Shown here: positions 46,354-56,105 of the stretch, one piece after another | Layout of the letters: every line of letters starts with the position of its first letter | Position numbering within the stretch: position 1 is the stretch's first letter | Source of the DNA: Microbacterium sp. Root53 | GTDB taxonomy: Bacteria > Actinomycetota > Actinomycetes > Actinomycetales > Microbacteriaceae | Assembly: GCF_001426925.1 (NCBI RefSeq) | Contig: NZ_LMFR01000004.1 | Location: 1 to 64,000 of the forward strand | Reading direction: 5' to 3' | DNA length: 64,000 nucleotides | Translations under genes and position numbers: made by a program | The notes under the pieces: model-generated | Told to the model about the DNA's origin: nothing | Database searches by the model: none | The model's input: the letters and a program-made list of their open reading frames with translations, nothing else

Positions 46354-49300
46354 TCAGGCGCCGAGCGGGATCGCCGCGTCGCCGGGCGCGACGTCGGCGG
46401 CGCGGTGGGAGACCAGCAGCACGATGCGGTCCTCGGTCGCGCGGCGGACGTCCGCCATCACGGCGGCGGCGGTCGGGGCGTCGAGGTGGGCCGTCGGCTC
46501 GTCCAGCAGGATGACGTCCGCGCGCGTCAGCAGGGTGCGCGCGATCGCGAGGCGCTGACGCTCGCCGCCCGAGAGCGCCGCGCCGCAGGGGCCGACCCGG
46601 GTGTCGAGCCCCTCGGGGAGCCGGCGCAGCAGCGCGCCCAGTCCCGAGCGCTCCAGCACGGCGCGCATCTCGCCGTCCGTGGGAGCGTCGTCCCGGCCGC
46701 GCGCGAGGAGGAGGTTGGCGCGCAGCGTCGAGTCGAACACGTACGCGTCCTGCGGGCACCACGCCACCCGCTCGCGCCAGGCCGCCAGGTCGAGCTCCGT
46801 GAGCGGCACGCCGTCGATCCGCACGGCGCCCGCCGCAGCGGGCAGCGCGCCCATCACGACCGACAGCAGGGTGGACTTGCCGGAGCCGCTCGGGCCGCCG
46901 ACCGCGAGCCACTGGCCCGTGCGCACCGCGCCGTCGATTGGCGCGAAGACCGGCGCGGCGGCGCCCGGGTAGCGGGCGGCGACGCCGTCCAGCCGGAGCT
47001 CCCACACCGGCGAGGCCGGAGTCGCGGTGCCGGTCGAGACCGGCGCGGGCTCTGCGAGCACGGGCGCGAGGCGGTGGCGCACTTCGGTGAGGGCGGGCAG
47101 CCGGTGGGCGGCCGCGACGAGGTCGGTCAGCGGCTCGGCCGCCGCGAGCGACAGCAGCGCGATCACGCACGCGAGCTCGGCCGGAGCCCCCGGCGCCCAG
47201 ACCGGGACGAGGAACGCGAGCGCCGAGCACGCCAGCACCACCGCCGCGGTGCCAGCGCCGGATGCCCAGGCCACGCGGCGCTCGGCGTCCGCCAGGCGCG
47301 CGTCGGCCTCGGCCAGCACGCTCAGCGCCGCGTCGGCGGCCGCGTTCGCGCGCAGGTCGTCCGCGGCCGCGGCGAGCGAGGCCGTCCCGCGCACGAGCGC
47401 GGACCGTTCCCGGATGCGTGCCCGCTGTGCCGCGCGCGACGTGGTGATCGCCAGCAGGGAGCCGATCGCGACCGCGGAGACGACGACGAGCAGCACCCGT
47501 CCCGCCACCTCGGGGAGCACGAGCGCGGCCGTGACGCCGATGCCGGCCACCGTGAGCACGCCCGAAGCCAGCGGAGGGATGACGCGGGGCAGCAGGTCGC
47601 GCAGCTCGCCCGAGAGCGTCACGAGGTAGTCGACGGGGGAGCCGCCCTCCAGCAGGCGGCGGGATCCCGCGCCCCGTGCCGCGATCGCCCGCCAGAGCCG
47701 CAGGCGCAGCGCATCGACCACGCGGAACGCCGCCTCATGCGTCGCGAGCCGCTCCGCGTAGCGCGCGACCGACCGGCCGATGCCGAAGAAGCGCACCCCG
47801 ACGATCGCCACGAGGAGGTACATGATGTGCTCCTCGACGCTCGCCCGCACGATCAGCCATCCCGATACGGCGCTCAGCGCCAGGCCGAGCGCGACCGCGG
47901 CGAATGCGAGCGCGATCCCGGCGACCCAGGGGCGGGCGGGGGAGGCGGGGGCAGGCGCCGTGGGCGCCACCGCCGTGGGGCGCTTCGGCTCGTTTCGTCT
48001 CCGCTCGCTGGCGCTCGCTCCGCTCGACGACCGGGGCGCGGGGCCGGACGAACCCCCGGCGCCGCCGACCTCGATGCGCGTCCCGGCGAGCGCGAGGGTC
48101 TCGGGCTCGTGGGCAGCGAGCACGACCGTGGCGCGCTCGGCGCGCGCGAGGATCGCAGCGCGGACGCGATCGGCCGACGTGCGGTCCAGGTGCGCGGTCG
48201 GCTCGTCGAGCACGAGCAGCGGCGCGCCCTGGTCGACGCGCGCCAGCGCCCGCGCGACCGCGAGGCGGCGCAGCTCGCCCGGGCTGAGTTCGGCGACCTG
48301 CGCGTCCGCGACGTGCTTCAGGCCCAGCTCCGCGAGCGCGGCGGCGGGATCCGCCGCACCGTGAAGCGCGAGCTCCTCGCGCGGGGTCGCGGCGAACGCC
48401 CGGGGCGCCTGCGCGGCGTAGGCCACGCCATCCGGGGCGACGCCGCGGATCGTCCCCGACACGTCGGCGTCGGCGGGCAGGACGCCCGCGAGCGCCGCGA
48501 GCAGCGTCGACTTGCCCGCGCCGCTCGGGCCCGTGACCGCCACGATCCCCGCGACGTCCGCGTCGAGGCCGTCGACCGTGGGCGTCTCCCGGCCCGCGTA
48601 TCGCACGGTGAGGTCGCGGAGGGAGAGTCGTCCCGCGGGGGAGGCACCGCGGACGTCCGCGCGCCGCGGACGGGCGAGGATCCCGCGCACGCGCTGCAGC
48701 GCCGACAGGCCGTCCTGCGACGCGTGGAACGCGGTGCCCACGTCGCGCAGCACCGCGTAGCACTCGGGCGCGAGGATCAGCACGAGCAGGGCGGCCTCGA
48801 GCCCGACGGAGCCCTGCATGAGCCGCAGCCCGAGGAACACGGCGACCACGGCGACCGAGATGGTCGCGATCAGTTCGAGCGCGAGCGACGAGAGGAACGC
48901 CCACCGCAGGGTCTCCTGGGTGCGGGCACGGTACGCGCGCTGGATGCCGTCGAGCGCCCGGGACTGCTCGTCGACCCGGTTCAGGCCGACCAGCACCGGC
49001 AGGCCGCGCGCGAGCTCGGTGAGGTGGTCGGCCAGCCGCGCGAGCGCGCCGAGCGCCTCGTCGGTGCGGGCCTGCGTGTGCCGCCCGATCAGCACCATGA
49101 AGAACGGGACGAGGGGCACGGTCACGACCACGACGAGCGCGCTGACCCAGTCCGCGCCCAGGATGCGCAGCCCCACCACGGCCGGCACGACGACCGCCGC
49201 GATCATCGCCGGCAGGCTGCGCACGTAATAGTCGTCCAGGTCCTCCAGCCCGTCGGTGGCCAGCACGGCTACCGAGCCGTCGCGCCCCGCGTCGCCGTCG

Positions 49301-49734
49301 GCGATCCGGCGCCACAGTCGCGAGCGGAGCGTGCTCTTCACCGTGATCGCGAGCCGCCGGGCGACCGCGTCGACCGCCCATCCGGAGCCGGCGCGCAGGA
49401 CGGCTCCGAGCGCGCCCAGCAGGACGATGGACCGCCCGTCGAGCGTCCCGGCCTGCAGCCCCGCGACGCCCGCGGCAACGGCACCGGCGACCAGCACGAG
49501 CCCGAGCGCACGCAGCGCCGCGAGCAGGCCGAGGGCGAGGATCGCGCCCGGCCCGACCGGGCCGAGCTCGGGGCGCTGCGCGGGCGCCTTCGGGCGCGCG
49601 GCCTCGAGGAGCCAGGGGTCGAGGTCGCGGGGAGGCTCGGTCGGTTTCGACTCCCTCGCTTCGCTCGGTCGCTCAACCACCACAGTGGTGCTGGTTGAGC
49701 GAGCGAAGCGAGTCGAAACCCCTGAAGCGGTCAC
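46354..49734 (-). CDS. cydDC: fused CydDC ABC exporter for cytochrome bd assembly
   Basis: One 1126-residue ORF holds both halves of the cysteine/glutathione-type exporter needed for cytochrome bd. The CydD half (about 40-560) has six helices, Walker A G-P-S-G-A-G-K-S-T, a degenerate signature L-S-P-G-E-L-R-R and D-E-P-T-A-H. The CydC half (about 600-1120) has G-P-S-G-S-G-K-S-T, L-S-G-G-E-R-Q-R and D-E-P-T-A-H-L-D. The linker near 560-590 (R-S-S-S-G-A-S-A-S-E-R-R-R-N-E-P-K-R) and residues 5-32 are translations of the dispersed GTTTCGACTC repeat. GTG 49734 is in the right place after cydB, but a start beyond the repeat is possible. Confidence 0.85.
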   Translation of the reverse strand: MTASGVSTRFARSTSTTVVVERPSEARESKPTEPPRDLDPWLLEAARPKAPAQRPELGPVGPGAILALGLLAALRALGLVLVAGAVAAGVAGLQAGTLDGRSIVLLGALGAVLRAGSGWAVDAVARRLAITVKSTLRSRLWRRIADGDAGRDGSVAVLATDGLEDLDDYYVRSLPAMIAAVVVPAVVGLRILGADWVSALVVVVTVPLVPFFMVLIGRHTQARTDEALGALARLADHLTELARGLPVLVGLNRVDEQSRALDGIQRAYRARTQETLRWAFLSSLALELIATISVAVVAVFLGLRLMQGSVGLEAALLVLILAPECYAVLRDVGTAFHASQDGLSALQRVRGILARPRRADVRGASPAGRLSLRDLTVRYAGRETPTVDGLDADVAGIVAVTGPSGAGKSTLLAALAGVLPADADVSGTIRGVAPDGVAYAAQAPRAFAATPREELALHGAADPAAALAELGLKHVADAQVAELSPGELRRLAVARALARVDQGAPLLVLDEPTAHLDRTSADRVRAAILARAERATVVLAAHEPETLALAGTRIEVGGAGGSSGPAPRSSSGASASERRRNEPKRPTAVAPTAPAPASPARPWVAGIALAFAAVALGLALSAVSGWLIVRASVEEHIMYLLVAIVGVRFFGIGRSVARYAERLATHEAAFRVVDALRLRLWRAIAARGAGSRRLLEGGSPVDYLVTLSGELRDLLPRVIPPLASGVLTVAGIGVTAALVLPEVAGRVLLVVVSAVAIGSLLAITTSRAAQRARIRERSALVRGTASLAAAADDLRANAAADAALSVLAEADARLADAERRVAWASGAGTAAVVLACSALAFLVPVWAPGAPAELACVIALLSLAAAEPLTDLVAAAHRLPALTEVRHRLAPVLAEPAPVSTGTATPASPVWELRLDGVAARYPGAAAPVFAPIDGAVRTGQWLAVGGPSGSGKSTLLSVVMGALPAAAGAVRIDGVPLTELDLAAWRERVAWCPQDAYVFDSTLRANLLLARGRDDAPTDGEMRAVLERSGLGALLRRLPEGLDTRVGPCGAALSGGERQRLAIARTLLTRADVILLDEPTAHLDAPTAAAVMADVRRATEDRIVLLVSHRAADVAPGDAAIPLGA
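47988..48033. repeat. GTTTCGACTC repeat inside the cydDC linker
   Basis: A unit of the dispersed family (CGTCTCCGCTCGCTGGCGCT...CTCGACGACCGG) lies in frame between the CydD and CydC halves. Confidence 0.8.
49640..49722. repeat. GTTTCGACTC palindrome at the 5-prime end of cydDC
   Basis: GGTTTCGACTC...GGTCGCTCAACCACCAC pairs with GTGGTGCTGGTTGAGC...GAGTCGAAACC around a single base, giving a stem of more than 30 pairs with small mismatches. It lies just inside the annotated cydDC start, so it could hinder translation or attenuate expression. Confidence 0.85.
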
Positions 49735-49739
49735 CGGCG

Positions 49740-50795
49740 TCAGTCCTTCGCCCGGAGGATGGCGGGCACGAAGCCGTGGGCGTCGGGGATGGCGCCCGGA
49801 GTGATGCGTCTGCGGAAGATCCAGTAGGACCACGCCTGGTACGCGATCACGAGCGGCAGTCCGAAGGCCGCGACGACCGTCATGACCGTGAGCGTGTAGG
49901 TGCCGCTCGCGGCGTTCCACACCGTGAGGCTGTGCGCGGGGTCGAGCGTGGAGGGCAGGACGTTCGGGAACATGGCCGCGAAGATCGCGCCCGCGCCGCC
50001 GACCAGGAAGGTCGCGAAGCCGACGAACGCGAGGCGCTCGCGCCGCCCCCGGGCGCTGATCCAGCCGATCGCCGCGCCCGCGACGGCCAGCGCGACGAGC
50101 GACCACGACAGCGCCGTCCCGCCCTGCGCGAACTGCACCCACAGGGCCCACACGGCGGCGGGGGCCAGGCACAGCGGGGCCCATGTCGCGGCGAATCGGC
50201 CGGCGCGCTCGCGCACCGGCCCGTCGCTCTTCAGCGCCAGGAACGTCGCGCCGTGCACGAGCGCGAACCCGACGACCGCGAGCCCGCCGATGACCGCCGG
50301 GGGCGTCAGCCACACGAACGGGTGCCCGACCCGGTCGCCGTTGGCGTCGATCGGCAGGCCCGTCGACGTGATCGCGAGCGCGGCGCCGATGCAGAACGCG
50401 ACCACGAGCGATCCGACGCCCAGGGCCCACGTCCAGAACGCCGCCCAGCGCGGATCCGCCATCTTGCCGCGGTACTCGATGCTCACGGCACGCGCGATGA
50501 GCGCCAGCAGCGTGATCGTGAGCGGCACGTAGAGCGCCGAGAACAGCGAGGCGTACCACATCGGGAACGCCGCGAAGAGGGCGGCGCCGGCCGTGATCAG
50601 CCACACCTCGTTGCCGTCCCAGACCGGGCCGATCGTGTTGAGCATCACGCGGCGGTCGTTCTCCTTCGCGGCGCGGTCGCCCCGGGCGCTGAGGAGCATG
50701 TGCATGCCGACCCCGAGGTCGAAGCCCTCGAGCAGCAGGAAGCCGATCCAGAGCACGGCGATCGCGACGAACCAGACGATGGGGAGGGTCTCCAT
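49740..50795 (-). CDS. cydB: cytochrome bd quinol oxidase subunit II
   Basis: A 351-residue membrane protein with nine or so helices. Features are V-L-W-I-G-F-L-L-L-E-G-F-D-L-G-V-G near residue 15, N-T-I-G-P-V-W-D-G-N-E-V-W-L near 52, and a final R-R-I-T-P-G-A-I-P tail. It stabilises the haem-bearing subunit I in the plasma membrane. It begins 18 bases after cydA, and the cydDC start is six bases from its stop. Length is typical. Confidence 0.95.
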   Translation of the reverse strand: METLPIVWFVAIAVLWIGFLLLEGFDLGVGMHMLLSARGDRAAKENDRRVMLNTIGPVWDGNEVWLITAGAALFAAFPMWYASLFSALYVPLTITLLALIARAVSIEYRGKMADPRWAAFWTWALGVGSLVVAFCIGAALAITSTGLPIDANGDRVGHPFVWLTPPAVIGGLAVVGFALVHGATFLALKSDGPVRERAGRFAATWAPLCLAPAAVWALWVQFAQGGTALSWSLVALAVAGAAIGWISARGRRERLAFVGFATFLVGGAGAIFAAMFPNVLPSTLDPAHSLTVWNAASGTYTLTVMTVVAAFGLPLVIAYQAWSYWIFRRRITPGAIPDAHGFVPAILRAKD

Positions 50796-50812
50796 GGCGC
50801 TGTCCTTCGGTC

Positions 50813-52399
50813 TCAGTAGGCGAACGCGAGCACGTCGTCGCGCTTGTCCGGGTCGTCGTCGCCGGGGGCGTCCGCGTCGTGCCGGTGCGCCAGCTCGGGC
50901 ATCGCGCTCACGGTGCCGCCGCGCACGTACTTCACGAGCAGGAACACCTCGATCACGAGCAGCACGGCGTAGATCGCGGTGAGCGAGATGACCGAGAACA
51001 GCAGCTCGCCGACCGTGGCCCCCGGCGAGACCGCGGCGGCCGTGAACATGAACACGCCGTCGATGCCGCTCGGGTCGGGGTTCGGCGCCACGACGAACGG
51101 CTGCCGTCCCATCTCGGTGAAGATCCAGCCCGCGATGTTCGCGGCGAACGGGGCCGTGATGCCGAGCACGGCGAGGCGCATGATCCAGATCGACCGCGGC
51201 ACGGTGCCCTTGCGCGTGAGCCAGAGCGCCACGACCGCCGCTCCGGCCGGGATCGCGCCCAGGCCGATCATGAGGCGGAAGCCCCAGTAGGTGATCCACA
51301 TCACGGGCACGTACGTGATCTCGGCGCCCGCGCGCTCGCCGTAGAGGGCGTCGTCGGGCAGCGTGGCGCCGTACGCGTCGACATACTGCGGCTCGAGGTC
51401 GTGGATGCCGGGCATCTCGGCGCCGAAGTCGCCCTTGGCGAGCCAGCCGAGCACGCCCGGCACCTCGACCAGCGTGACCACCGAGTCGCAGTCGGTCGCC
51501 CCGGGGTCGCCGATCGACAACACCGAGAACGACGACCCCGTGTGGCAGGCGGCCTCCGCGGCGGCCATCTTCATGGGCTGCTGCTCGTACATGAGCTTGC
51601 CCTGGATGTCGCCGGTCCCCGCGACGGCGAGGAAGCCCACGACCGCGGCGACCGCGCCGATGCGCAGCGAGCGGAGCCACACGCCGTGGTCCTTCTCGTC
51701 GCGGCCGGCGACATCCGGGTGGGAGCCGACGACCACGCGCCCGGAGGCGTCCACCGTGTCGATGCCGTCGGCGCGCCGGCGCCACAGGTGGTGCCAGCTG
51801 ATGCCGAGCAGGAACATGCCCGCGACCATGACGGCGCCCGCGATCGCGTGCGAGAACGCGGCGATCGCCGTGTTGTTGGTGAGCACCGCCCAGATGTCCG
51901 TCATGACGGGCCGCCCGTCCGGTCCGAGCTCGACGCCCACCGGGTGCTGCATCCAGGAGTTGGCGACGATGATGAAGTACGCCGAGACCCAGCTCGCCAT
52001 GGCCGCCAGCCACAGCGCCGCCAGGTGCACGCCCTTGCGCAGGCGGCCCCAGCCGAAGATCCAGACGCCGAGGAAGGTCGACTCGACGAAGAAGGCGAGC
52101 AGGCCCTCGAGCGCGAGCGGGGCGCCGAACACGTCGCCGACGAAGCGGGAGTACTCGCTCCAGGCCATGCCGAACTGGAACTCCTGCACCAGGCCGGTCG
52201 CGACGCCGACGATGAAGTTGATCAGGTAGAGCTTTCCCCAGAACTTCGTCATGCGCAGCCAGCGCTCGTCGCCCGTGCGCACCCACGCGGTCTGCAGGAT
52301 CGCGACCGCCGGGCCCAGGCCGAGCGTGAGCGGCACCATGAGGAAGTGGTAGACGGTCGTGATGCCGAACTGCCAGCGGGCGATGTCGAGGGGGTCCAC
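50813..52399 (-). CDS. cydA: cytochrome bd quinol oxidase subunit I
   Basis: A 528-residue protein: D-I-A-R-W-Q-F-G-I-T-T-V-Y-H-F at the N-terminus with the haem His, F-V-E-S-T-F-L-G-V-W near 97, and N-S-W-M-Q-H-P-V-G near 148. G-I-H-D-L-E-P and the quinol loop follow, and G-R-Q-P-F-V-V lies near 390. Subunit I holds haems b558, b595 and d and reduces oxygen with high affinity. GTG start. It is the first gene of cydA-cydB-cydDC, reading away from the BlaI operators. Confidence 0.95.
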   Translation of the reverse strand: MDPLDIARWQFGITTVYHFLMVPLTLGLGPAVAILQTAWVRTGDERWLRMTKFWGKLYLINFIVGVATGLVQEFQFGMAWSEYSRFVGDVFGAPLALEGLLAFFVESTFLGVWIFGWGRLRKGVHLAALWLAAMASWVSAYFIIVANSWMQHPVGVELGPDGRPVMTDIWAVLTNNTAIAAFSHAIAGAVMVAGMFLLGISWHHLWRRRADGIDTVDASGRVVVGSHPDVAGRDEKDHGVWLRSLRIGAVAAVVGFLAVAGTGDIQGKLMYEQQPMKMAAAEAACHTGSSFSVLSIGDPGATDCDSVVTLVEVPGVLGWLAKGDFGAEMPGIHDLEPQYVDAYGATLPDDALYGERAGAEITYVPVMWITYWGFRLMIGLGAIPAGAAVVALWLTRKGTVPRSIWIMRLAVLGITAPFAANIAGWIFTEMGRQPFVVAPNPDPSGIDGVFMFTAAAVSPGATVGELLFSVISLTAIYAVLLVIEVFLLVKYVRGGTVSAMPELAHRHDADAPGDDDPDKRDDVLAFAY

Positions 52400-53680: not shown

Positions 53681-53734
53681 AGCGTCTCGCACGCTCGCGC
53701 CGACGCTCCGCGCCGGACACTCGCGAGCGAGGAA
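53681..53734. repeat. 54-base dispersed repeat, copy 2
   Basis: Matches 16953-17006 at all but one base. Here it starts right after the M56 gene stop. Confidence 0.85.
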
Positions 53735-53791
53735 CGTCGCTTCGCGCCGTTCGGCAGCGCTTCGCGCTGCGGTGTTCGCTTCGCTCAACGC

Positions 53792-53921
53792 TCGCTTCGC
53801 TCGCACGACGGTAGAGCTGGGCGTTGCTCTCGGTCGCTTCGCTCGCACGACGGTAGAGCTGGCGGCTTCCTCTCGGTCGTTGAGCGGAGGCGACGGAGGA
53901 GCCGGAGTCGAAACGGGTCGA
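53792..53921. repeat. direct repeats and GTTTCGACTC unit
   Basis: A 29-base unit (TCGCTTCGCTCGCACGACGG then TAGAGCTGG) occurs at 53792-53820 and 53834-53862. It is followed at 53877-53921 by a GGTCGTTGAGCGGAGGCGAC...GAGTCGAAAC unit. No gene lies in this spacer. Confidence 0.8.
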
Positions 53922-53960
53922 AGCCTGCCGGGCGACCCGTCGGGATAGGGTGGCGACACG

Positions 53961-55358
53961 ATGGGCATCTCGCGACGCACCCTGCTCGTCGGCGCCGGAG
54001 CCGGCGCCGTCGCCGTGCTGCTCGCCTCGTGCACGGGCGACCCGCAGCCGCGGCCGACCACGGCGGGACCGACCCCCACGTCGACGCCCGCCTCGCCGAC
54101 CGCGAGCCCTGTTCCGGGTGCGCCCCGGCCCGCGGCGTTCCGGCGCAGCGCGTGGGCGACCGATCCCTTCTCGCGCGGCGCCGCGAGCTTCACCCCGCCG
54201 GGCGCCGCCCCCGCACAGCGCGAGGCGCTCGCGCAGCCGATCGGCGGACGGGTGTTCCTGGCGGGCGAGGCGACCGACCCCGACCGGCCCGGGACGCTGG
54301 CCGGCGCCCTGCGGTCCGGTCAGCGCGCGGCGCGCGAGGTCGTCGACGCGGCGGCCGGTCCGGACGAGCGGATCGCCGTCGTCGGGGCGGGCCTCGCCGG
54401 CGCGACCGCCGCGCGGCGCCTCGCCGAAGCCGGATTCGACGTGACCGTGATCGAGGCCAGGGACCGGATCGGCGGGCGCGTGCACGCCGTCGCGGACGAT
54501 GAGTGGCCGGTCGCCCCCCAGCTCGGCGCCTGGCTGCTCACCGAAGAGGACGCCGAGATCGAGGCCCGGCTCGATGCGTTCGGGATCGAGCGCGAGCGGC
54601 TCGAGGGCGCCATCGCGCTCTCGAGCGAGGGCGAGGTCGACGTCCCCGGCGCCGAGCGGATCGCCGCGGCCATCGAGTGGGCCGCCGCGCGGCCCGCAGA
54701 CGTCCCGCTCGCAGAGGCGCTCGCCGAGTCGGGCGCCGACCCGGAGGATCCGGCGCTCGCGGCCGCTGTGGCCGAGCTCGTCGCGCTCGCCGGCGCCGAC
54801 CCCGATCGGCTGTCGAGCTGGTATCCGCCGCTCCTGCCCGGCACCGCCCTCACGGCCGCGCTCGGCGACCTGTCGGACCTGACCGCCCGGCCGCTCGAGG
54901 AGTTCCGGGTCAACCTCTCCACGGCCGTGGTCGGCGTCGCGTACGACGACACGGGCGTGTCCCTGCGCCTCGGCACGGGGGAGGCGCTGTCGGTCGACCG
55001 CGTCGTCCTGACCGTGCCGCTCGGGGTGCTGCAGGACGAGGGCGTCGAGTTCGAGCCTCCGCTTCCGTTCGCGCACCGCGGCGCGATCGCCGAGCTCGGG
55101 ATGGGCCACCTCGAGACCGTCTGGCTGCGCTACGACGAGCCGTTCTGGCGCACGGATGCGGTGCTGTGGCACGTGGTCGGCGGCGACGCGCCCATCCGGA
55201 CCTGGATCAACCTCGAGCCCCTCACGGGCGAGCCGGTGCTGGTCGGCCGGATCGGCGGCGAGGCCGCGCGCGCGTTCGCCGAGCTCGATGACGCCGCCGC
55301 CGTGGAGCGCGCGCTCGCGTCGCTCACGCCGTTCGTCGCCGCGGGCGACGCCGACTGA
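53961..55358 (+). CDS. circularly permuted flavin amine oxidase, Tat-like lipoprotein
   Basis: The 465-residue protein starts M-G-I-S-R-R-T-L-L-V-G-A-G, with a lipobox L-A-S-C, so it is exported and lipid-anchored. Residues about 60-128 (W-A-T-D-P-F-S-R-G-A-A-S-F, G-G-R-V-F-L-A-G-E-A-T, G-A-L-R-S-G-Q-R-A-A) are what normally forms the C-terminus of monoamine-oxidase-type enzymes. The FAD-binding N-terminus (A-V-V-G-A-G-L-A-G-A-T-A-A-R-R-L, E-A-R-D-R-I-G-G-R-V-H) only comes at 137. The protein ends where that displaced block would start. FAD-dependent oxidation of an amine is inferred. Confidence 0.88.
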   Translation: MGISRRTLLVGAGAGAVAVLLASCTGDPQPRPTTAGPTPTSTPASPTASPVPGAPRPAAFRRSAWATDPFSRGAASFTPPGAAPAQREALAQPIGGRVFLAGEATDPDRPGTLAGALRSGQRAAREVVDAAAGPDERIAVVGAGLAGATAARRLAEAGFDVTVIEARDRIGGRVHAVADDEWPVAPQLGAWLLTEEDAEIEARLDAFGIERERLEGAIALSSEGEVDVPGAERIAAAIEWAAARPADVPLAEALAESGADPEDPALAAAVAELVALAGADPDRLSSWYPPLLPGTALTAALGDLSDLTARPLEEFRVNLSTAVVGVAYDDTGVSLRLGTGEALSVDRVVLTVPLGVLQDEGVEFEPPLPFAHRGAIAELGMGHLETVWLRYDEPFWRTDAVLWHVVGGDAPIRTWINLEPLTGEPVLVGRIGGEAARAFAELDDAAAVERALASLTPFVAAGDAD

Positions 55359-55379: not shown

Positions 55380-56105
55380 TCAGCGCCGGGGCGCGGTGAT
55401 CCGCCTCCGGCTCAGCCAGATCAGCCCGGCCGACACCAGCGCGAACACCGCGAGCGCCGCGCAGCTGGTCAGCAGGAACTCCGCCGGCCCGCTCACCTGC
55501 CGCAGATCCAGGAAGTAGTACGGGTACCAGCCGATCAGCGAGCCGCGCCACATCGTGAAGGCGCCCCAGACCACCGGGTAGGCCAGCACGATCGACACGA
55601 CGCGCCACGGCGCCGGTCGCCGCCCGGCCGCGAAGGCCCAGTCGACCAGCGCGAGCGCGGGCACCCAGAAGTGCAGCAGCTGATCCGACCACGGCACGTC
55701 GATCCGGATCGCGCGCTCGCCCGCCTGCCACACGAGGAAGCCGAACACGATGCCCGCCGTGGTCGTCCAGCTCAGCGCCACGGTGCGGGCGGAGGTCAGC
55801 CAGGGCGGGTCGGTCATCCGATGCAGCGCGTCGAACCCCGAGATCGCCCACACGCACGCGAACAGGATGTTCGACTGCATCGTCAGATACGCCAGGAAGT
55901 TCGACCCGGCGATGGTGTTCGAGCTGAGACCCCACAGCAGCCGGTGCACGAGCGCCACGACGCAGACGCCGACCACGGCCAGCCGCATCCATCCGGTGAC
56001 GGCCGGATGCCACCAGTCGAGCGCAGCCAGGCGCTGCCACCTGCGTGCGGAGCGCGATGTCACCGTTGGGGCGCTCTCCCATCCGACGCGACCGTCGCGC
56101 GCCAT
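55380..56105 (-). CDS. Pr6Pr-family membrane protein
   Basis: A 241-residue protein with six hydrophobic segments. N-F-L-A-Y-L-T-M-Q-S-N-I-L-F near residue 69, L-L-H-F-W-V-P-A-L-A near 143, and Y-P-Y-Y-F-L-D near 195 are typical of the Pr6Pr/FAR-17a/AIG1-like membrane family. Function unknown. It converges with the amine oxidase. Confidence 0.82.
   Translation of the reverse strand: MARDGRVGWESAPTVTSRSARRWQRLAALDWWHPAVTGWMRLAVVGVCVVALVHRLLWGLSSNTIAGSNFLAYLTMQSNILFACVWAISGFDALHRMTDPPWLTSARTVALSWTTTAGIVFGFLVWQAGERAIRIDVPWSDQLLHFWVPALALVDWAFAAGRRPAPWRVVSIVLAYPVVWGAFTMWRGSLIGWYPYYFLDLRQVSGPAEFLLTSCAALAVFALVSAGLIWLSRRRITAPRR

Follow-up and report, generated by a model that had tools for sequence, protein, structure and literature searches.

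A circularly permuted, putatively exported flavoprotein of the LSD1/polyamine oxidase fold in Microbacterium and other Actinomycetota

The 465-residue protein encoded with an ATG start at 53961-55358 (plus strand) of Microbacterium sp. Root53, in a window of 64,000 nucleotides (the whole stretch of DNA that was analysed), is very probably an exported flavoprotein of the LSD1/polyamine oxidase fold whose chain has been circularly permuted, a judgement that takes permutation, fold family and export jointly. Its blocks run C–N–middle where the canonical order of the Pfam family PF01593 is N–middle–C. Sequence homology links it to the LSD1/polyamine oxidase (PAO) branch of PF01593, and its mode of action is probably a related one; it is filed here as a permuted variant rather than as an amine oxidase because it departs from that class both in block order and in the lysine near flavin N5. 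A sequence-only reading of this DNA had proposed the permutation; the replacement of the N5 lysine, the phylum-wide occurrence and the cut at one hinge go beyond that reading. To our knowledge, there are few natural circular permutations inside a large and much-studied enzyme fold with a two-part cofactor site.

Layout of the gene

PF01593 (Amino_oxidase) matches the protein at 170.1 bits against a curated cut-off of 19.8, divided among three stretches. The features of the gene and its convergent neighbour are as follows.

53961..54032, plus strand: signal peptide (residues 1-24) with twin arginine R5R6 and lipobox LASC, of which Cys24 is the last residue, read from the sequence
54033..54119, plus strand: Pro/Thr-rich linker (residues 25-53), read from the sequence, with pLDDT below 50 over residues 1-39 and 41-50
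54120..54353, plus strand: C block (residues 54-131), from phmmer matches to spermine oxidase (SMOX) and LSD2, canonical profile positions 354-428 of 429, and the block HMM
54354..54365, plus strand: join of the old C-terminus to the old N-terminus, about 4 residues, the gap between block matches
54366..54533, plus strand: N block (residues 136-191) with GAGLAG and R-x-G-G-R, from NAD_binding_8 and the block HMM
54534..55328, plus strand: middle (substrate) domain (residues 192-456), from the best Amino_oxidase stretch (304-458) and the LSD1 fold match
55116..55118, plus strand: Thr386, the site of the flavin-N5 lysine, from alignment column counts
55329..55358, plus strand: tail of 9 residues and stop codon, which is the cut; the C block comes here in canonical proteins
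55380..56105, minus strand: gene for a Pr6Pr family membrane protein, convergent and separate from the enzyme (NF038065 at 108.8 bits, cut-off 30)

The C block carries W-x-x-D-P-F, VFLAGEAT and GALRSGQRAA, motifs that normally end canonical amine oxidases. The block HMM finds it at E 7e-37, a value that serves to locate the block only, the training alignment having included the 465-residue protein itself. Pfam NAD_binding_8 matches the N block (5.2e-13, residues 140-183), and the FAD motif residues G142, G144, G147, R169, G171, G172 and R173 are invariant among 15 aligned permuted proteins.

Block order and rotation

The earlier reading held that a C-terminal block stands ahead of the FAD-binding loop and that the protein stops where this block should begin, and both statements are borne out. 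In phmmer searches against the PDB, residues 52-129 match spermine oxidase 403-481 and residues 54-127 match LSD2 700-773, in each case the C-terminal end of the solved protein, while residues 133-190 match spermine oxidase 2-58 and residues 313-456 match LSD2 542-692. The stop codon falls 9 residues past the middle block.

Against a profile of 429 positions made from 22 canonical proteins only, the native order gives two partial matches, one of 183.7 bits (profile 5-346) and one of 86.3 bits (354-428); the latter score disposes of the concern that the N-terminal block might be a spurious match. Rotation of the protein at the junction yields a single match of 279.7 bits that covers profile positions 7-428, and the junction cut was the top-scoring one among 19 control cuts placed at 20-residue steps. 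The effect is general: 45 of 48 permuted open reading frames (ORFs) score higher in their best match once rotated, and over the set the median best-domain score rises from 189.6 to 275.75 bits and the median profile coverage from 0.80 to 0.98; the three that do not gain have an insertion that splits the match (L029), a long C-terminal tail (L111) or an incomplete middle block (L118). Rotation had been proposed at about 130 residues, and of that proposal the rotation stands and the size does not: the piece that moved is about 80 residues long (54-134), since signal peptide and Pro/Thr-rich linker take up residues 1-53.

Relatives with the same order, which the earlier reading had called for, are numerous. 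Three block profiles (C, N and middle) were built from 15 permuted proteins and used to scan ORFs of at least 100 residues at 201 loci, which gave 171 distinct three-block ORFs, 85 of them C–N–middle and 86 N–middle–C. Besides these there were 17 ORFs with N and middle blocks, 8 with N, 4 with middle, 3 with C and N, 3 with middle and C and 2 with C only, and 11 duplicate ORFs were dropped; the duplicate loci L026, L073, L074, L077, L106 and L107 are left out of the cut and join, lysine, rotation and signal counts. Chance or a frameshift artefact as the source of the arrangement was considered and ruled out, given 85 distinct ORFs with the same order.

It might also be supposed that unrelated pieces were fused, or that a tandem pair was truncated, so that the protein is a broken enzyme with an N-terminal block left over from a second amine oxidase gene. 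The end of the 465-residue protein carries no C block, as such a truncation would have it, and at one locus (L085) a canonical fragment does lie head to tail about 1 kb ahead of a complete canonical ORF. A second copy of the C block at the end of the protein, named by the sequence-only reading as the finding that would overturn the permutation, is however the very thing that is missing, and not one of the 171 distinct three-block ORFs has a C block at both ends. Each block is present once, the arrangement is complete and it recurs in 85 distinct ORFs; moreover dN/dS lies at about 0.09-0.32, well below 1, in 13 hand-picked pairs (our own Nei-Gojobori script), pairs without the N5 lysine among them. 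A broken fusion is thus highly improbable, and circular permutation, to which block order, rotation, recurrence and constraint all point, is the reading carried forward.

Predicted structure and known relatives

An AlphaFold2 model of the Root53 protein built from 15 permuted sequences has a pLDDT of 83.8 and a pTM of 0.81, and a model of the permuted protein L030 built from 13 sequences has a pLDDT of 83.6 and a pTM of 0.84. Ten-residue mean pLDDT in the moved block ranges from 76 to 97 in the former and from 68 to 97 in the latter. Residues 134-463 of the Root53 model align with LSD1 277-739 (Z 25.0, rmsd 2.5 over 317 residues, 27% identity), and residues 115-450 of L030 align with LSD1 277-736 (Z 29.4, rmsd 1.9 over 331 residues, 35% identity); the top Foldseek matches are LSD2 chains, with a TM-score of about 0.62 by query length.

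Among the 50 alignments to solved structures listed for each model, none begins before residue 125 (Root53) or residue 108 (L030). The moved block thus falls outside these alignments, which is what an aligner bound to chain order would be expected to give for a permutant; by homology the block is predicted to occupy its canonical place in three dimensions. The new N-terminus would, on the earlier reading, lie near the FAD. In a search of the permuted profile against the PDB, no best stretch among the 60 best of 140 sequences begins before profile position 125, and so none of these spans the C block through the join.

The closest folds are the amine-oxidase domains of LSD1 and LSD2 (KDM1A and KDM1B), from which the Root53 protein differs in being rotated, in being an exported lipoprotein of 465 residues by its signal, and in having threonine for the N5 lysine. 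LSD1 carries SWIRM and tower additions and the Root53 protein is without them. Maize PAO (Z 24.3) and SMOX have the same three blocks, but the Root53 protein is rotated relative to them and is without the lysine that one study reports as strictly conserved in the polyamine oxidase clades it examined (PMC7576179). Nearer home, canonical-order amine-oxidase-like proteins of Actinomycetota (L083, L085 and L123, for example) share both the blocks and the Tat-lipoprotein signal, and differ in their N–middle–C order and in keeping the lysine.

Engineered permutants of Old Yellow Enzyme exist. No natural circular permutant of the present flavoenzyme family appeared among the matches listed in searches on permutation in the PMC library, which is made up mostly of papers outside subscription journals. 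The best 25 NCBIfam families for each of three proteins (of 51, 44 and 34 matching) include none at its cut-off. Routine annotation can hide a permutation of this kind, as it takes no account of the order in which profile hits fall along the protein.

Distribution of the permuted order

Within the genus, 15 of 35 genomes, that of Root53 among them, carry the permuted order; across the phylum 10 of 396 do, and one fragment was found besides. Within Microbacteriaceae, end-to-end matches to the permuted profile occur in 79 of 249 genomes (a hand count of rows that start at profile position 1-3 and reach 454 or beyond), one more genome matches partially from position 1, and block order was checked directly in 54 distinct ORFs of the family. 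Permuted members come from Microbacterium, Agromyces, Herbiconiux, an Acidimicrobiia and a Thermoleophilia bacterium, with others in 14 family codes.

The permuted order thus occurs across Actinomycetota, and the members found are all from that phylum, other phyla being undersampled, with only one scan, a single plasmid search and searches of the PDB reaching them. Five three-block matches from other phyla (L037, L039, L043, L044 and L052) have the canonical order, and in the plasmid search seven records matched, none covering 80% of the query. Canonical-order relatives live in the same genus (L016-L020) and even in the same genomes as permuted ones (G820 and G921). The permuted form is no oddity of a single genome but is met with across the phylum, and with canonical relatives so close at hand it becomes testable where it came from, how it affects folding and the loading of FAD, and whether it recurs at one hinge. 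As a separate observation, in five genomes of the family coded f75 (L114-L118) a canonical-order amine-oxidase ORF adjoins the permuted one on the opposite strand.

A common hinge and a route by duplication

The middle domain of many canonical relatives closes on an R-L-Y-G-D-like sequence, after which come V-P-x-P and the C block, and the permuted chains are cut at this same hinge. Of 48 permuted ORFs, 46 terminate no more than 18 residues beyond the middle block, the exceptions being L111 and L118, which continue further. A-Y-G or A-F-G is the end of several (L091, L103, L114, L116 and L117), and V-P-x-P is the start of the folded part in many. In all 48, a join of just 0-5 residues connects the old ends.

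This pattern of cut and join fits the model of permutation by duplication, in which, according to the available text of PMC2096629, a gene duplicates, fuses with its copy and afterwards acquires a start and a stop at other positions. The DNA methyltransferases that serve there as the tested example are likewise made of the same blocks rotated, with the old ends joined. In the present protein the old C-terminal block, which completes the FAD site, has been joined ahead of the old N-terminus and the chain opened at the hinge between middle domain and C block; the simplest route to this would be duplication in tandem, followed by fusion and by loss of the two outer parts. The head-to-tail fragment at L085 (positions 1-567, middle and C blocks) represents the kind of layout from which the duplication model starts and from which a permutant could arise.

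Single or repeated permutation

Five IQ-TREE trees were made from re-ordered sequences, with 60 of 77 rows, 64 of 120, 56 from the same 120, 66 of 171 and 29 of those 66; distant or near-identical rows were removed by hand, and the groups of the 29-row tree were picked after the 66-row tree had been viewed. In none of the five do the permuted rows form one side of a branch, nor do they in any of the 200 bootstrap trees of each (0%), and a FastTree tree of 77 rows also mixes permuted and canonical. At least two changes of order are forced by starred branches in two of the five trees, and holding the permuted group together makes the trees 13-37 log units worse.

The trees and tests together speak against a single origin without clearly rejecting it. 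AU tests of one permuted clade gave p values of 0.141, 0.0458, 0.0556, 0.0731 and 0.0932 for the five sets, and 0.153 when the f75 group was removed, so that one of the six falls below 0.05 and the other five do not reject the clade at that level. The same hinge cut in 46 of 48 ORFs also suits a permutation that arose once, the mixing in the trees being noise. Weighing this against the absence of a single permuted group from every bootstrap tree, the forced changes of order and the cost of the constraint, we lean only slightly towards one origin.

Export signal

The N-terminus SRRTLLVGAGAGAVAVLLASC has the twin arginine, the hydrophobic stretch and the lipobox cysteine of a Tat-lipoprotein motif, and R5, R6 and C24 are invariant in the 15 aligned permuted proteins. 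The earlier reading had taken these two motifs as showing export; both are indeed present, but the Pfam model TAT_signal (PF10518) scores 15.0 bits against a cut-off of 22.7. As that model is only 21 positions long, the miss is weak counter-evidence. A signal of the Tat lipoprotein type suggests that the protein would fold with its FAD in the cytoplasm, be exported and then be tethered on the outer face of the membrane.

A strict pattern from twin arginine to lipobox is found in 32 of 48 permuted ORFs (16 miss it) and in 15 of 72 canonical ones; the idea that the lipoprotein signal is special to the permuted form was set aside on account of those 15.

The flavin-N5 position and possible function

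The column of Thr386 is that of LSD1 Lys661, a lysine bonded to flavin N5 by way of a water molecule. Of 86 canonical ORFs 82 keep lysine there and 4 have arginine; among the permuted ORFs from outside Microbacteriaceae 30 of 31 keep it and 1 has histidine. The permuted ORFs of Microbacteriaceae have lysine in 10 of 54, a fraction that is not an unbiased estimate because the 26 added loci were the new ones that scored highest among 102 matching genomes, and otherwise have threonine (30), glutamine (4), valine (3), leucine (2), arginine (2), asparagine (1), serine (1) or alanine (1). None of the 22 distinct ORFs of the genus Microbacterium has lysine, and the Root53 protein, with threonine, departs from the lysine that marks O2-using amine oxidases of the fold. 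An initial impression that Microbacteriaceae were without the lysine throughout (0 of 28) was overturned by the wider sample. The aromatic-cage column, presumably that of LSD1 Tyr761, varies in both block orders and is uninformative.

The consequences of losing this lysine have been studied in human monoamine oxidase (MAO) A, where the equivalent residue is Lys305. In the part of PMC8009472 available, K305M lowers kcat about 200-fold and K305S about 100-fold; the K305M enzyme is reduced normally by substrate but is reoxidised slowly by O2, and quinones can reoxidise it. K305Q is still active and K305R inactive (PMC8009472), so the effect of Thr386 cannot be read directly from MAO A. The N5 lysine is described as critical for the reaction with O2 in several oxidases of the fold (PMC12272882, available text).

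For the Root53 protein the residue change, the sequence conservation and the motifs are observed, while FAD binding, export, substrate and acceptor are inferred. Taken with the literature on MAO A and other oxidases, these observations make a membrane-tethered dehydrogenase, which would pass electrons to an acceptor other than O2, the likeliest single reading of the Microbacterium protein, though one held at somewhat less than even odds.

That the Root53 protein is still an H2O2-producing amine oxidase, another residue standing in for the lysine, would agree with its intact FAD motifs, with the lysine kept in most permuted ORFs outside Microbacteriaceae and in some inside, and with the activity of MAO A K305Q (PMC8009472). 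The residue is threonine, though, the similar K305S substitution costs most of the kcat of MAO A, and not a single Microbacterium ORF has the lysine, which together render a working oxidase rather doubtful.

It is also conceivable that the protein is no longer an enzyme and serves as an FAD-holding, surface-tethered structural or sensing protein beside the Pr6Pr membrane protein. In favour of this, 44 of 54 Microbacteriaceae ORFs have T, Q, V, L, R, N, S or A in place of the lysine and the convergent Pr6Pr neighbour is present in 52 of 54 loci; yet convergent genes form no operon, and the conserved FAD motifs and middle domain fit an enzyme, so a purely non-catalytic role seems unlikely. The natural series of lysine, glutamine, arginine, threonine and other residues at flavin N5 offers a ready set in which to study the choice between O2 and other acceptors.

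A broader scenario would have the fold permuted more than once in Actinomycetota, always at the same hinge (or permuted and reverted), the hinge then being a repeatable break point, after which one Microbacteriaceae lineage would have repeatedly dropped the O2-activating lysine and so become a membrane-tethered, O2-independent dehydrogenase. Taken as a whole this is speculative and improbable as it stands.

Gene neighbourhood

Neighbour counts cover only about 1.5 to 3 kb of flank per locus. Within these flanks a Pr6Pr homologue stands on the opposite strand at 52 of 54 permuted loci of Microbacteriaceae (absent from L021 and L195) and at 0 of 31 other permuted loci. Upstream of the permuted gene in Root53 lie a penicillinase-repressor-like gene, an M48/M56-like peptidase gene and a gene for cytochrome bd subunit I (PF01654 at 50813-52399, minus strand), and these upstream genes recur, within the flanks, only in L021 and L022, in both of which cydA is near the permuted gene. 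Genes that resemble cydB and CydDC, judged by eye from the ORFs, are also present on the minus strand in the stretch 46354-52399. The intergenic stretch ahead of the permuted gene (53690-53930) forms part of a dispersed repeat with 73 matches in its own genome, itself included, and about two tandem copies of 42 nt lie within it at 53792-53879.
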